Below, one piece after another: positions 13,684-46,722 of a stretch of 64,000 nucleotides of DNA. The translations under genes were made by a program, and so were the position numbers. A model generated the notes under the pieces. That model ran no database searches. It had not been told where the DNA came from and was given only the letters and a program-made list of their open reading frames with translations. Source of the DNA: Haloactinospora alba (GTDB lineage Bacteria; Actinomycetota; Actinomycetes; Streptosporangiales; Streptosporangiaceae); the NCBI RefSeq assembly GCF_006717075.1, contig NZ_VFQC01000001.1, positions 1,287,501-1,351,500 on the forward strand, read 5' to 3'. Positions within the stretch are counted from its first letter, which is position 1. Each line of letters starts with the position of its first letter.

Positions 13684-15384
13684 GTGCTCGAAGAAGTCCG
13701 TATCAAGGGTCTCGGGGTCATCGACGACGCCATGCTGGAGCTGTCGCCGGGGCTGACGGTTGTTACCGGTGAAACCGGTGCGGGGAAGACCATGGTGGTG
13801 ACAGGGCTGGGACTGCTGTTCGGCGGCCGTGCTGATCCGCAACGAGTGCGCCCCGGTGCGGAACGCGCCCTCGTCGAGGGGCGTATCACACTCCCGGAGG
13901 AGAGCCGGGTCACGGAGCGCGTTTCCGAGGCCGGGGGGGAGCTCGACGAGGGAGCACTGATCCTCACCCGTTCGGTGTCGGCGGAGGGCCGTTCCCGGGC
14001 CTCCGCGGGCGGGCGCTCCGCCCCCGTGAGCCTGCTCGCCAGCCTCGCGGACGACCTCGTCGCCACACACGGCCAGTCCGACCAGCACCGTCTGCTGCGC
14101 ACGGAGCGGCAGCGCGCTGCTCTCGACCGCTACGCCGGAGAGGCGCTCACCAGGACACTCAACTCCTACGCCGCTGCCTACCGTCGGCACCGTGAGGTCT
14201 CCGAGGAACTGGAGGAGCTGACCAGCCGCGCGCGCGACCGCGAGCAGGAGGCCGACATGCTGCGGTTCGGTGTCGAGGAGATCGCTGACGCCGAGATCAC
14301 CCCGGGCGAGGACGCGGAGCTGCTCGCGGAGGAGAACAGGCTCGCCCATGCCGACTCCCTGCGTGTCGCCGCTACCACCGCCAACCGGGCACTCACCGGG
14401 GACCCGGACGCCGATATGCAGGCCGACGCTGTGGGGCTGCTCGCTTCGGCACGCCATGCGTTGGCGGCGGTACGGGACCATGACACGTCATTGGCATCGG
14501 TGACCGACCGGCTGGACGAGGCCAGCCACGTCCTCGGTGACATCGCCACCGAGCTGGCCTCCTACGCCGACTCGATCGAGGCCGACCCCGCTCGGTTGGC
14601 TGCCGTCCAGGAGCGCAGGGCCCACCTTGCCCAACTGTCCCGTAAATACGGGGAGAGCAGTGACGATGTCCTCGCCTGGGCCGAGGACGCCGCCAAACGG
14701 CTCGCGGAGCTCGAGGGGGACGACGAGCGCATCGACGAGCTGCGCGATGAAGAGGAGGAGCTGCGTTCCAAACTGCTCGAGTTGGCTGACGAGCTGACCC
14801 GGATCCGCACCGAGACCGCCGAGACGTTCTCCGCCGCTGTCACCGAGGAACTCACCGCGTTGGCCATGCCCCACGCCCAGGTCAGTGTTCGGGTGACAGC
14901 CGGGGATGATTTCGGTCCCCACGGCCGGGACGAGGTCGAGATCCTGCTTGTCGCCCATCCCGGAGCTCCGCCGCTCCCGTTGCACAAAGGGGCCTCGGGG
15001 GGCGAGCTTTCCCGGGTGATGCTCGCGATCGAGGTCGTGTTCGCCGGTGCCGACCCCGTGCCCACCTTCGTCTTCGATGAGGTGGATGCCGGAGTCGGGG
15101 GGAAGGCGGCGGTCGAGGTCGGTCGTAGGCTCGCCCGTCTCGCCAGAGCGGCACAGGTGGTGGTCGTGACCCACCTTCCCCAGGTGGCCGCGTTCGCCGA
15201 CGCTCACCTGGTCGTGGAGAAATCCGGGGCGGGAACCGTGACGGAGAGCGGCGTCACGCGTCTGGACCGGGCCGGCCGTACTCGGGAACTGTCCCGGATG
15301 CTGGCCGGGTTGGAGGACTCGGAGCTCGGCCAGGCCCACGCTGAGGAACTCCTGACGATCGCCGACACCGCTCGGGCGTCCTGA
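13684..15384 (+). CDS. recN: DNA repair ATPase RecN
   Basis: The 566-residue SMC-like protein has a Walker A at residues 29-36 (GETGAGKT), a long Glu/Arg-rich coiled-coil centre (about 150-360, for example RARDREQEADML), an ABC signature in KGASGGELSRVMLAIE, and Walker B in FVFDEVDAGVGG. RecN acts early in double-strand-break repair, tethering DNA ends for RecA-dependent recombination. The GTG at 13684 is chosen because GGGAGAG lies about 7 nt upstream and the protein then starts VLEEVRIKG, typical of the family. A recN start is often SOS-controlled, but no CGAAC-N4-GTTCG box is visible here. Confidence 0.95.
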   Translation: MLEEVRIKGLGVIDDAMLELSPGLTVVTGETGAGKTMVVTGLGLLFGGRADPQRVRPGAERALVEGRITLPEESRVTERVSEAGGELDEGALILTRSVSAEGRSRASAGGRSAPVSLLASLADDLVATHGQSDQHRLLRTERQRAALDRYAGEALTRTLNSYAAAYRRHREVSEELEELTSRARDREQEADMLRFGVEEIADAEITPGEDAELLAEENRLAHADSLRVAATTANRALTGDPDADMQADAVGLLASARHALAAVRDHDTSLASVTDRLDEASHVLGDIATELASYADSIEADPARLAAVQERRAHLAQLSRKYGESSDDVLAWAEDAAKRLAELEGDDERIDELRDEEEELRSKLLELADELTRIRTETAETFSAAVTEELTALAMPHAQVSVRVTAGDDFGPHGRDEVEILLVAHPGAPPLPLHKGASGGELSRVMLAIEVVFAGADPVPTFVFDEVDAGVGGKAAVEVGRRLARLARAAQVVVVTHLPQVAAFADAHLVVEKSGAGTVTESGVTRLDRAGRTRELSRMLAGLEDSELGQAHAEELLTIADTARAS

Positions 15385-15482
15385 CGGCGGTCCCCGTCGG
15401 GACGTGTCTCGCATGTGTGGTTCCATGGCATGATAGAAGAGTGTCACGAAGCTGCGACTGCGTGGACGCTGCGTGGCTCGTG

Positions 15483-15625
15483 AACGCATGGTGAGGGGAG
15501 TATCCCTTACACGGCGGTGTCGTCATCACGGATCGCGATAAGGCGAACCCGGTGCCGCCGGTCCATGGACGGTGCCGTGGCTGAGCCGTGGTGCTTCCGG
15601 GACGGGAGAGACCTCCGGTGCGAGA
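15483..15625 (+). ncRNA. yybP-ykoY (Mn2+) riboswitch upstream of terC
   Basis: The leader carries both conserved internal-loop blocks of the yybP-ykoY class: GGGGAGTA (15495-15502) with the neighbouring GTCGTCATCACGG, and GGAGAGACCT (15605-15614). CGCATGG near 15485 pairs with CCGGTGCG near 15614-15621 as P1. This class senses Mn2+ and often controls TerC/Alx and MntP-type membrane proteins. The 3' strand CCTCCGGT (15612-15619) is perfectly complementary to ACCGGAGG (15656-15663), the terC ribosome-binding site. This suggests that ligand binding frees the SD and turns translation on. Confidence 0.85.
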
Positions 15626-15672
15626 CATGTCCGTTTGCGCATTACGGGCACGGCAACCGGAGGAGTGTATCC

Positions 15673-16680
15673 ATGAACGTCCCGATGTGGGTGTGGCTTG
15701 TCACGGTCGGCGGGATGCTCGCCGTACTGATCGCCGATCTCGCCATCGTCGACCATCCGTGGAGCAAGAAGAGCGGGCCGCGTGAGTTCGGCATGCGTCA
15801 GGCCGCATGGTGGGCGGCCTTCTACATGGGGATAGCCCTGCTCTTCGGAGTCGGCCTGTGGTACGTGGGCGGCGGGACAGTGGCAGGGGAGTACTTCGCC
15901 GGCTTCATCACGGAGAAGAGCCTCAGCGTCGACAACCTCTTCGTGTTCTACCTGATCATGGGTAGTTTCGCCGTCCCGAAGAAGTACCAGCACGAGGTGC
16001 TGCTGGTGGGGATCGTGATCGCCCTGGTCATGCGCGGTGCCTTCATCGCCGTGGGAGCGCAGGCGATCAACGCCTGGAGCGAGATCTTCTACCTGTTCGG
16101 CGCGTTCCTCATATACACGGCGGTCAAGATCGTCCGCGACCACGTCTCGCGTGACTCCGACGAGGACTACTCGGACAGCTTCGCCGTGCGCATGGTACGG
16201 AAGGTCTGGCCGGTCACCGAGGAGTACCACGGCCCGCGCCTCACGGTGCGCCAGGGGGGGCGGCGCTACGTGACCCCGATGCTCATGGTCATCGTGGCGA
16301 TCGGTGTCACCGACCTCGTCTTCGCCATCGACTCCATCCCGGCCATCTTCGGACTGACGCAGAACGCCTACATCGTCTTCACCGCCAACGCGTTCGCCCT
16401 GCTGGGGCTGCGCCAGCTGTACTTCCTGCTGGCAGGGCTGATGGACCGGCTGGCCTACATCAGTTGGGGCCTGGCCGCCATCATGGTCTTCATCGGGATC
16501 AAGATGATCCTGCACGCCCTGCACGAGAACGGTGTCGAGGTCGTGGAGGTCACGACCTCCCTCTCCCTCTCGGTCATCATCGGCGTGATGACTGTCACCG
16601 TGGTGGCCAGTCTGCTGACCTCCCGTCCGACACCGCGCGCGGAAGCTGTTCCCCAGGAGCGGGAAGAGTCCGGAGAGTAG
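15673..16680 (+). CDS. TerC/Alx-family membrane protein
   Basis: The 335-residue integral membrane protein has about nine hydrophobic segments and typical TerC blocks: FITEKSLSVDNLFVF (acidic residues within the membrane), GVTDLVFAIDSIPAIFG and NAFALLGLRQLYFLL. TerC/Alx proteins are linked to Mn2+ export and to metalation of exported proteins; tellurite resistance is the historical name. The ATG at 15673 has GGAGGAG 8 nt upstream. Control by the adjacent Mn2+-class riboswitch supports a manganese role over tellurite. It stands as a single gene between recN and uvrA. Confidence 0.93.
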   Translation: MNVPMWVWLVTVGGMLAVLIADLAIVDHPWSKKSGPREFGMRQAAWWAAFYMGIALLFGVGLWYVGGGTVAGEYFAGFITEKSLSVDNLFVFYLIMGSFAVPKKYQHEVLLVGIVIALVMRGAFIAVGAQAINAWSEIFYLFGAFLIYTAVKIVRDHVSRDSDEDYSDSFAVRMVRKVWPVTEEYHGPRLTVRQGGRRYVTPMLMVIVAIGVTDLVFAIDSIPAIFGLTQNAYIVFTANAFALLGLRQLYFLLAGLMDRLAYISWGLAAIMVFIGIKMILHALHENGVEVVEVTTSLSLSVIIGVMTVTVVASLLTSRPTPRAEAVPQEREESGE

Positions 16681-24421: not shown

Positions 24422-24545
24422 GGTCATGAGTGCCAGTGTTAAGCCCCGGCTAACTGGCCGGCAACCCTCCTTCCGCGGTGGGGTGCCCCGGGTGAGGACC
24501 AGGTCGAGACACGACCGAACGCAACCGTGTCAGGCAAGCGCGGAC
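24422..24545 (+). ncRNA. SAM-IV riboswitch
   Basis: The sequence matches the actinobacterial SAM-IV class in order and spacing: GGTCATGAGTGCCAG at the 5' end, AAGCCCCGGC, CTGGCCGGCAACCCTCC, CCGCGGTGGGGTGCCCCGGG, GACCAGGT, and a 3' arm with GGCAAGCGCGGACC forming the pseudoknotted end. GGTCA and TGAGGACC close the core helix. SAM-IV binds S-adenosylmethionine and usually represses sulfur or methionine genes when SAM is high. It precedes a class V aminotransferase by 72 nt. Confidence 0.92.
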
Positions 24546-24617
24546 CCCGCGGGAAGCAGGCGACGACGGCGCCGCCGCATCTCCAGGGGTCCCTAACGGC
24601 CCCGTGGAGGTGCCTTG

Positions 24618-33497: not shown

Positions 33498-33630
33498 ACG
33501 CGTGCTCCGGGGTCGGTGAAAGTCCGAACCGGCGGTGACAGTCCGCGACCCGACCGACATGCTCGGCCGGTGGAACCGGTGGAATTCCGGTGCCGACGGT
33601 GAAAGTCCGGATGGGAGGAAGTACGCGTGC
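33498..33630 (+). ncRNA. FMN riboswitch (RFN element)
   Basis: The RFN blocks are all present: CGGGGTCGGTGAAAGTCCGAACCGGCGGT, read as GGGGTCGGTGAAAGTCC then ACCGGCGGTGACAGTCC; CGACCCG; GCCGGTGG..GGTGGAATTCCGG; GACGGTGAAAGTCCGGATGGGAGGA; and a closing pair between ACGCGT at the 5' end and ACGCGTG at the 3' end. It would repress the riboflavin genes when FMN is abundant. A perfect 9-bp hairpin (CGTTCGGAT 33630-33638 with ATCCGAACG 33663-33671) follows directly and may form the expression platform. Confidence 0.95.
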
Positions 33631-45461: not shown

Positions 45462-46615
45462 CGTTCCTCCTCGCTCCCGGTGGGCAGACGGTCCGTGGCG
45501 AACGCGCGCGCATAATCGGGAAGTTCGCCACCGGCCAGGGCCTCGGCCATGGCATCCCCGGTAGCAGGAGTGAGGAGCACGCCGTGCCGATGGTGTCCGA
45601 CTGCCAGATGCAGGCCGGGAGTGCGGGTCGGACCCAACAGGGGGGCATTGTCCGGGCTTCCCGGCCGCAAACCCACACATGTTTCGGTGATCTCCAGCTC
45701 ACTGACGCCGGGGACGAGTTCGTGGGCATCCCGCAGGATCTCCCACACGCCGCCCACGGTCAGCCGGGTGTCATGGCCCATCTCCTCCTGGGTGGCGCCC
45801 AGCACGATCTCCCCGTTGGCGCGCGGAACGAGGTAGACGGGCGTTCCCTTGACGAGCCCTCGGACGGTACGGGTCACGACCGGTTCCTGGTCCTCGGGCG
45901 TCCGGAGCCGCAGAAGCTGGCCCTTGACCGGTCGCAGTTCCGGTAGGAGGCCGGGTGCCAGGCCGCTGATGGCGCCGGTCCACACACCGGCCGCCAGTAC
46001 CACGTGGCGGCCGCGCACCTCGCCACCGGACTCCAGCCGCAGCCCCGCGGCCTGTCCCTGCGCGTACAGAACCTCGGTAACGCGGTCCCGCACGCCGACG
46101 GCACCATGCCGTTCCGCCGCTGTGCGCAGCGCTGCCATGAGCGCGCGTGGATCGACGGAATGGTCGTCCGGGGCGACGATCCCGCCCCGCACCGCCGGTG
46201 CCAGCATCGGCTCCAAGCGGCGGCACTCGCGAGCGGTGAGCCGTTCGGTCTTGATCCCCAGCCGGTTCTGCAACTCACCGAGGTCGGTGAGTTTTGCGAG
46301 GTCGTCAGTGTCGAATGCGACCTGCAGTGTGCCTTCGGTCCGGTACCCCGTCGGAGTGCCGCTCTCCTCCTCCAGCTCGGTGATGAACTCCGGGTAGCGG
46401 TTACGGGACAGGGTTCCGAAGCGCATCAGCGTTTCCTCGCCGAACGTGGCCTCTGACGCGGGAGTGAGCATTCCCGCCGCGACTGGGGAAGCGGCCTCGG
46501 AGATCTCAGGGGCGACGATGGTGACGTGCAAGCCGCGTTGTGCGGCCCGCCACGCGGTGACGAGGCCGATCACTCCCGCGCCGGCGATCACGACATCGGA
46601 GTCGTTCGTGTGCAC
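45458..46615 (-). CDS. thiO: Glycine oxidase ThiO
   Basis: The 385-residue FAD enzyme of the DAAO family oxidises glycine to iminoglycine for ThiG. The dinucleotide motif VVIAGAGVIGLVTAWRAAQRG is at the N-terminus; later blocks are HVVLAAGVWTGAI, GEIVLGATQEEMGHD and GLRPGSPDNAPLLGPT, and the FAD-binding HHRHGVLLTPATGDAMAE is near the end. The GTG start at 46615 has GGAGG 9 nt upstream, inside the 3' strand of the TPP riboswitch, so translation can be blocked by ligand. Confidence 0.94.
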
Positions 46616-46627
46616 AGCTGTTCCTCC

Positions 46628-46722
46628 CTCCCTTCGCCGGTATGACCCGGATCAGGTTTGCGGTCGGAGGCACGGCGCCTCCCTCTCAGCCGGTTCGGCT
46701 CCCGCGGGGTGTTCTCTCCCTG
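46628..46722 (-). ncRNA. TPP riboswitch (THI box)
   Basis: Read on the minus strand, the RNA contains GGGAGCC, CGGCTGAGAGGGAGGC, CCTCCGACCG, AACCTGATCCGGGTCATACCGGCGAAGGGAGGG in conserved order (here broken into AACCTGATCCGGGTCAT and ACCGGCGAAGGGAGG). These are the pyrimidine-sensing and pyrophosphate-sensing arms of the THI box. The 3' strand runs into the thiO SD. A TAGACT -10-like element lies at 46730-46725, giving a short leader. Confidence 0.93.

Follow-up and report, generated by a model that had tools for sequence, protein, structure and literature searches.

A predicted P2-less Mn2+ riboswitch of the yybP-ykoY family in the terC leader of Haloactinospora alba

The leader of the terC gene in Haloactinospora alba (15493-15663 of the window, which is the whole 64,000-nt stretch of DNA that was analysed) is best read as a Mn2+ riboswitch of the ON type that acts on translation and belongs to the yybP-ykoY family, in a form without helix P2, as at alx of E. 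coli, and we give this reading a probability of roughly 0.8. The type of riboswitch is already known and the leader is a new member of it; of interest are a P2-less branch that the present Rfam model misses and a strand that two helices share. A sequence-only reading of this DNA had proposed a Mn2+ riboswitch and an ON switch worked by an anti-Shine-Dalgarno (anti-SD) strand, and comparison with other genomes supports both: the former through covariation in two alignments, a match to the alx leader and the gene context, the latter through the pairing of each anti-SD with its own SD and through covariation in helix P1.1. That reading had placed the anti-SD at the 3' edge of the aptamer. Its position (15612-15619) stands, but the strand is more than an edge, since the CCUC within it also forms the 3' side of the switch helix P1.1, opposite GAGG at 15493-15496. 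Likewise, the earlier range of 15483-15673 also takes in the SD, while the modelled aptamer is 15493-15619.

The genome comprises 4.9 Mb in 4 contigs. The terC gene is flanked by uvrA and by a gene with domains of the RecN/SMC type, and its ATG at 15673 follows the SD region ACCGGAGG (15656-15663) with a spacer of 9 nt. The aptamer also contains an in-frame GTG (15517), from which a reading frame of 387 aa runs across terC (15517-16680), so that automatic gene calling could take the riboswitch for coding sequence. A promoter scan around the leader found none. The folding energy of the leader, taken alone, is only mildly unusual (z of -1.98; 9 of 200 shuffles fold equally well or better). Other riboswitches above the Rfam cut-offs in the window are SAM-IV, FMN and TPP, at 24422-24546 (+), 33498-33628 (+) and 46612-46715 (-), respectively. 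The parts of the predicted element are listed in Table 1.

Table 1. Predicted parts of the terC leader and the terC gene, in positions of the window. A1, A2 (alignments) and R1 (covariance model) are defined in the text.
Feature	Position	Strand	Basis
Aptamer including anti-SD (span of R1)	15493..15619	+	R1 match of 86.7 bits; window copy (L004) is among the 26 training sequences of R1
P1.1 5' strand GAGG	15493..15496	+	partner 15612-15615; helix 1 paired in 99.2% of A2 cells
L1 5' strand GGAGUA	15497..15502	+	GGAGUA in 116 of 120 rows (A1 + A2)
P1.2 5' strand UCCC	15503..15506	+	partner 15604-15607; 3 of 4 pairs compensated in A2
6-nt linker, at the position of P2 in P2-bearing relatives	15507..15512	+	linker of 4-8 nt in 26 A1 rows, 3-11 nt in 94 A2 rows
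P3.1 5' strand	15513..15522	+	partner 15550-15559; 8 of 10 pairs compensated in A2
L3 UCAUCAC, with A15525 at the place of Mn-sensing A41 (L. lactis) / A48 (X. oryzae)	15523..15529	+	A in 26/26 and 94/94 rows; register according to the excerpts of PMC6754395
P3.2 hairpin	15530..15549	+	fold; 3 of 4 modelled pairs compensated in A2
P3.1 3' strand	15550..15559	+	fold
P4 arm	15562..15602	+	R1 alignment; 5 of 5 modelled pairs compensated in A2
P1.2 3' strand GGGA	15604..15607	+	pairs with 15503-15506
L1 3' strand GAGA	15608..15611	+	GAGA in 113 of 119 elements
Shared strand: P1.1 3' strand (15612-15615) and anti-SD CCUCCGGU (15612-15619)	15612..15619	+	sequence, covariation, own-versus-foreign pairing, fold
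SD region ACCGGAGG, complement of the anti-SD	15656..15663	+	sequence; own-versus-foreign pairing test
terC	15673..16680	+	335 aa, TerC family; PF03741 E=2.2e-51; 35% identity to E. coli Alx

The consensus blocks of the yybP-ykoY family that the sequence-only reading had reported were located in the leader: GGGGAGUA at 15495-15502, GAGACC at 15608-15613 and UCAUCAC at 15523-15529, which supply both strands of L1 (GGAGUA/GAGA) and L3. Two traits of the family were looked for and are present. First, GGAGUA of L1 stands opposite GAGA, with P1.1 and P1.2 on either side; P1.2 pairs in 94.4% of the A2 cells. Secondly, L3 lies over P3.1 and contains an invariant adenosine, which is A in 120 of 120 rows (26 from A1 and 94 from A2). 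P2 is absent from the leader, where a 6-nt linker is found, and with it the four-way junction seen in the structures from L. lactis and X. oryzae. A15528 had been considered as the Mn-sensing residue from plain similarity to CGUCAACAUAC. It was rejected, as it is A in only 77 of 94 rows and the L3 loops given in the excerpts of PMC6754395, UCA41AU43UC for L. lactis and ACA48U49ACU52 for X. oryzae, lead to A15525.

A TerC protein search of 60 relatives matched 51 of them and returned 30 loci, including that of the window. The element was present in 28 of these 30 terC loci, 26 by motif and two (L009 and L029) by covariance model, and in L021 and L030 it was found neither by motif nor by R1. The 26 motif-bearing actinomycete terC leaders, with the window copy among them, form alignment A1, and R1 is the covariance model made from A1. 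The structure of A1 (P1.1, P1.2, P3.1, P3.2 and P4) pairs in 94.9% of cells, as against 45-54% for slid structures; 13 of its 27 pairs were changed on both sides, and its covariation was 0.323 versus 0.179 for the shuffled alignment. In the window, R1 scored its own copy, a training member, at 86.7 bits, and the next best place at 16 bits (E=0.27), which is at chance level. Alignment A2 holds the 94 matches of R1 in 93 loci that were not used for training, with one place represented twice (L144/L145) and 91 distinct rows. It paired in 95.2% of cells and 21 of 27 pairs were compensated, with a covariation of 0.549 versus 0.196 shuffled and at most 0.131 slid, figures that lean towards the structure of R1 because A2 was fitted to it.

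The element is widely distributed. As the filter loses weak matches, the R1 scans give lower bounds: at E<=0.01, at least 54 of the 296 genomes sampled from the phylum carry a match, and at E<=0.001 at least 237 of the 394 sampled from the class. Among the matches listed, the motif occurs, by record title, in Streptomyces, Mycobacterium, Corynebacterium, Micromonospora, Nocardioides, Amycolatopsis and Nocardiopsis; for 80 of the at least 117 motif-bearing stretches (L152-L231), only the record titles were used. The listed matches also include MAG contigs with the titles Chloroflexi, Prevotellaceae and Acidobacteria (L155, L197 and L222), identified by title. One locus, L144 (G691:C1:323232-325077, - strand), has two R1 elements, at 310-414 and 1601-1696, about 1.3 kb apart, with a terC match downstream of both.

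The complementarity between the anti-SD and the SD was evident in the letters themselves, where the sequence-only reading had noted it: CCTCCGGT (15612-15619) and ACCGGAGG (15656-15663) form 8 perfect base pairs. The complementarity of an anti-SD to its own SD exceeds chance. In 118 homologous leaders (119 elements minus L054, which has too little downstream sequence), 8 Watson-Crick pairs between the anti-SD and its own downstream region were found in 60, compared with 4.4% for foreign anti-SDs and 0.55% for shuffled downstream regions, kinship being ignored. At 7 bp or more the values for the same leaders were 69.5% (own), 32.7% (foreign) and 2.1% (shuffled), again irrespective of kinship; foreign pairing is common at this length because SDs resemble each other. 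The contrast was weaker for 8 bp with G-U pairs allowed (58.5% own versus 30.3% foreign, kinship likewise ignored), and 21 of the 118 leaders had no 7-bp helix between the anti-SD and the downstream region, even with G-U.

The shared strand also covaries with its partners. At fixed columns in the 91 distinct A2 rows, the outer pair of P1.1 was G-C in 65, A-U in 24 and unpaired in 2. Where the anti-SD has CCUU instead of CCUC, P1.1 is altered to match, and in many cases so is the SD. In genome G270, for example, none of the three strands is the same in its two terC-linked elements, one of which has GAGG/CCUCCGGU/ACCGGAGG and the other AAGG/CCUUCGCG/CGCGAAGG. When the 118 leaders were sorted by P1.1/anti-SD/SD triplet, 76 were G-C-G, 11 A-U-A, 7 A-U-G and 3 others, with 21 lacking a 7-bp helix, but the third column of this count is not independent, since the SD is picked by its complementarity to the anti-SD, and some picks (e.g. 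in L136) are far from the likely SD. The own-versus-foreign comparison and P1.1 at fixed columns are the better tests.

The proposed mechanism is as follows. At low Mn2+, CCUCCGGU would pair with the SD region ACCGGAGG and little terC would be translated. At high Mn2+, together with Mg2+, L1 would dock onto L3 around the metal and the weak P1.1 (GAGG/CCUC) would be stabilised. The stabilised P1.1 would take CCUC from the SD, the SD would become free and TerC would be made, and TerC would then handle the excess Mn2+, most likely by export. The direction of this switch is probably ON. In the ligand-free fold, the SD-paired form had an energy of -95.3 versus -86.7 kcal/mol for the forced aptamer, with metal and tertiary contacts outside these numbers. 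Stabilisation of P1.1 by Mn2+ has been described for the X. oryzae riboswitch (excerpts of PMC6754395; see also those of PMC11087558).

Mn2+ is suggested as the ligand, and also as the substrate of TerC, by the genes downstream and by kinship with known members. Within 1.5 kb downstream of the 119 distinct elements, there was a terC match in 99 and a P-type cation ATPase match in 11, with two of the ATPases confirmed in Pfam. The other nine elements preceded GDT1 (UPF0016) genes (three), Na/Ca exchanger genes (two), a gene for an M50 peptidase (one) or a gene without a family (one), or had too little sequence (two). Transporter genes of types linked to Mn export thus follow 115 of the 119 elements. 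TerC, UPF0016, P-type ATPases and a Ca:cation exchanger share one table, with notes that mention Mn export, in a review of which the excerpts also call the transport direction of the homologue Alx disputed (PMC9936198). The element before the M50 peptidase, which has a CBS domain and is not a transporter, has a full anti-SD/SD pair, CCUUCGGC/GCCGAAGG (L117, 151-237).

With respect to kinship, the best outside match of R1 was the E. coli alx leader, which aligned end to end (41.7 bits, E=2.8e-7). R1 also matched L034, which is above the RF00080 cut-off at 49.1 bits, with 37.1 bits (E=3.3e-6), and more weakly L038 (E=0.01), L040 (E=0.02), L039 (E=0.09) and L036 (E=2.4); mntP, L035, L037 and L044 were not matched at E<=10. 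The tie to the P2-bearing members therefore rests on L034, the weaker matches and the shared core. A model of P2-bearing members (alignment A3) was dropped, as L3 of L038 and of L040 was one base out of register. According to the excerpts of PMC9603457, both alx and mntP reporters in E. coli respond to Mn, and alx responds to alkaline pH as well. Since alx is the best outside match, the same fold and SD switch might be driven in the cell mainly by pH, or by pH and Mn2+ together, which is what has been reported for alx. We regard this as unlikely, as the downstream genes point to Mn-type transporters and the Mn2+-contacting adenosine of L3 is invariant; moreover, a pH input would add to Mn2+ as an input and would not remove it.

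A different alternative is that the switch is transcriptional and the anti-SD:SD helix secondary. The X. oryzae riboswitch does work in this manner, by antitermination, with P1.1 competing against a terminator (excerpts of PMC6754395 and PMC11087558). For the leader studied here such a switch appears quite unlikely. No terminator-like site of the Rho-independent type was found on the + strand of 15380-15760 (one is present on the - strand), and the alternative helix takes in the SD, which in 26 of the 30 loci lies 3-12 nt upstream of the first start codon found by pattern. It is improbable that the leader is a relative of the Mn2+ riboswitches that prefers another metal (e.g. Cd2+, Fe2+ or Ni2+/Co2+): P2 is missing and L3 is partly unlike those of L. 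lactis and X. oryzae, but the leader retains both the L1 strand and the invariant adenosine, and the genes downstream encode Mn-type transporters. Lastly, a plain RNA thermometer or constitutive brake, with upstream blocks unrelated to metal, would agree with the paired SD of the ligand-free fold and is very improbable, given that L1, L3 and P1.1, which lie far upstream of the SD, either are conserved or covary, and that R1 finds alx.

The sequence-only reading had looked to Rfam model RF00080 for confirmation, and this was not obtained. RF00080 of Rfam 15 had no match at the gathering score in the 64,000-nt window and none at E<=10 in 401 nt around the leader. In the same 401 nt, the sole match of Rfam up to E<=10 was a chance-level plant-virus pseudoknot, and the NiCo (czcD) riboswitch model was not matched. 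RF00080 gave three weak matches in the H. alba genome (best 14.6 bits), none at the terC leader, and in 13 relatives, each of which has the element, it gave no match at E<=1. Across 198 genomes of the phylum, 17 had a match at E<=1, one of them above the cut-off, and no such place was among the phylum-scan matches of R1; over 20 further R1-matched loci there was a single match (L116, 23 bits).

The controls show how this silence should be read. RF00080 had no match at E<=10 in the E. coli K-12 alx leader (L052 2800-3120; L051 2880-3200, the E. coli K-12 stretches of the controls), and it scored the E. coli K-12 mntP leader at 44.9 bits against a cut-off of 45. Among 14 control genomes, some match was found at E<=10 in nine, C. 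glutamicum included, and at E<=1 in five, C. glutamicum not included. RF00080 thus fails on alx, which is an accepted member and is likewise built without P2. Because it fails there and mntP falls just below the cut-off, the missing match at terC was taken as a limit of the model and not as a refutation, and a match to RF00080 was not treated as a defining trait. Similarly, P2 was not treated as a defining trait because the accepted alx, too, shows a linker of 6 nt when aligned to R1.

These results make it rather probable that Actinomycetota possess a widespread branch of P2-less Mn2+ riboswitches, with a three-way junction, that is shared with alx. One strand of this branch would serve both as a strand of P1.1 and as the anti-SD, and the 5' end of the aptamer would imitate the SD and compete with it directly. 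The branch would be nearly invisible to the present Rfam model and its metal core would be able to dock without a four-way junction. Control by Mn in Actinomycetota is probably under-annotated because the current RF00080 misses a branch that includes alx. For a gene family named after tellurium resistance, the proposal offers a specific metal and a testable mechanism, here and in the genomes of the class that carry the element. In addition, the P2-less form poses a structural question, namely how two legs dock without a four-way junction. In the literature covered, which was partial and mainly open-licence, the P2-less actinobacterial branch or its anti-SD was not found described beyond Corynebacterium and general mentions.

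Known systems resemble the terC leader to different degrees. According to one sentence in the excerpts of a review (PMC8164766), yybP-ykoY Mn2+ riboswitches were found by RNA-seq in Corynebacterium and Streptomyces; these excerpts give no gene, structure or anti-SD for them. The leader of Corynebacterium glutamicum cg2157 comes from the same phylum, precedes the same gene (terC) and, in the published annotation by which it is known here, is a yybP-ykoY element; it was detected by RNA-seq and scored 49.13 bits with RF00080 of an earlier Rfam (excerpts of PMC3890552). The yybP-ykoY Mn2+ riboswitches of L. lactis and X. oryzae, for which crystal structures exist, share with the terC leader the P1.1 switch helix, L1, L3 with its invariant adenosine, P3 and P4. 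They differ in that they have a four-way junction with P2 and are transcriptional, whereas the terC leader has no P2 and its P1.1 competes with the SD helix. L3 also differs in part, being UCAUCAC here, UCAAUUC in L. lactis and ACAUACU in X. oryzae. The three elements before GDT1 genes (L119, L133 and L136) have ACACACU as L3, which resembles ACAUACU of X. oryzae more than it does the UCANYAC type. The E. coli alx leader aligns with R1 from end to end, including L1, a 7-nt L3 and a 6-nt linker instead of P2, and it too has a gene of the TerC family downstream, while past GAGACC it has a downstream arrangement of its own.
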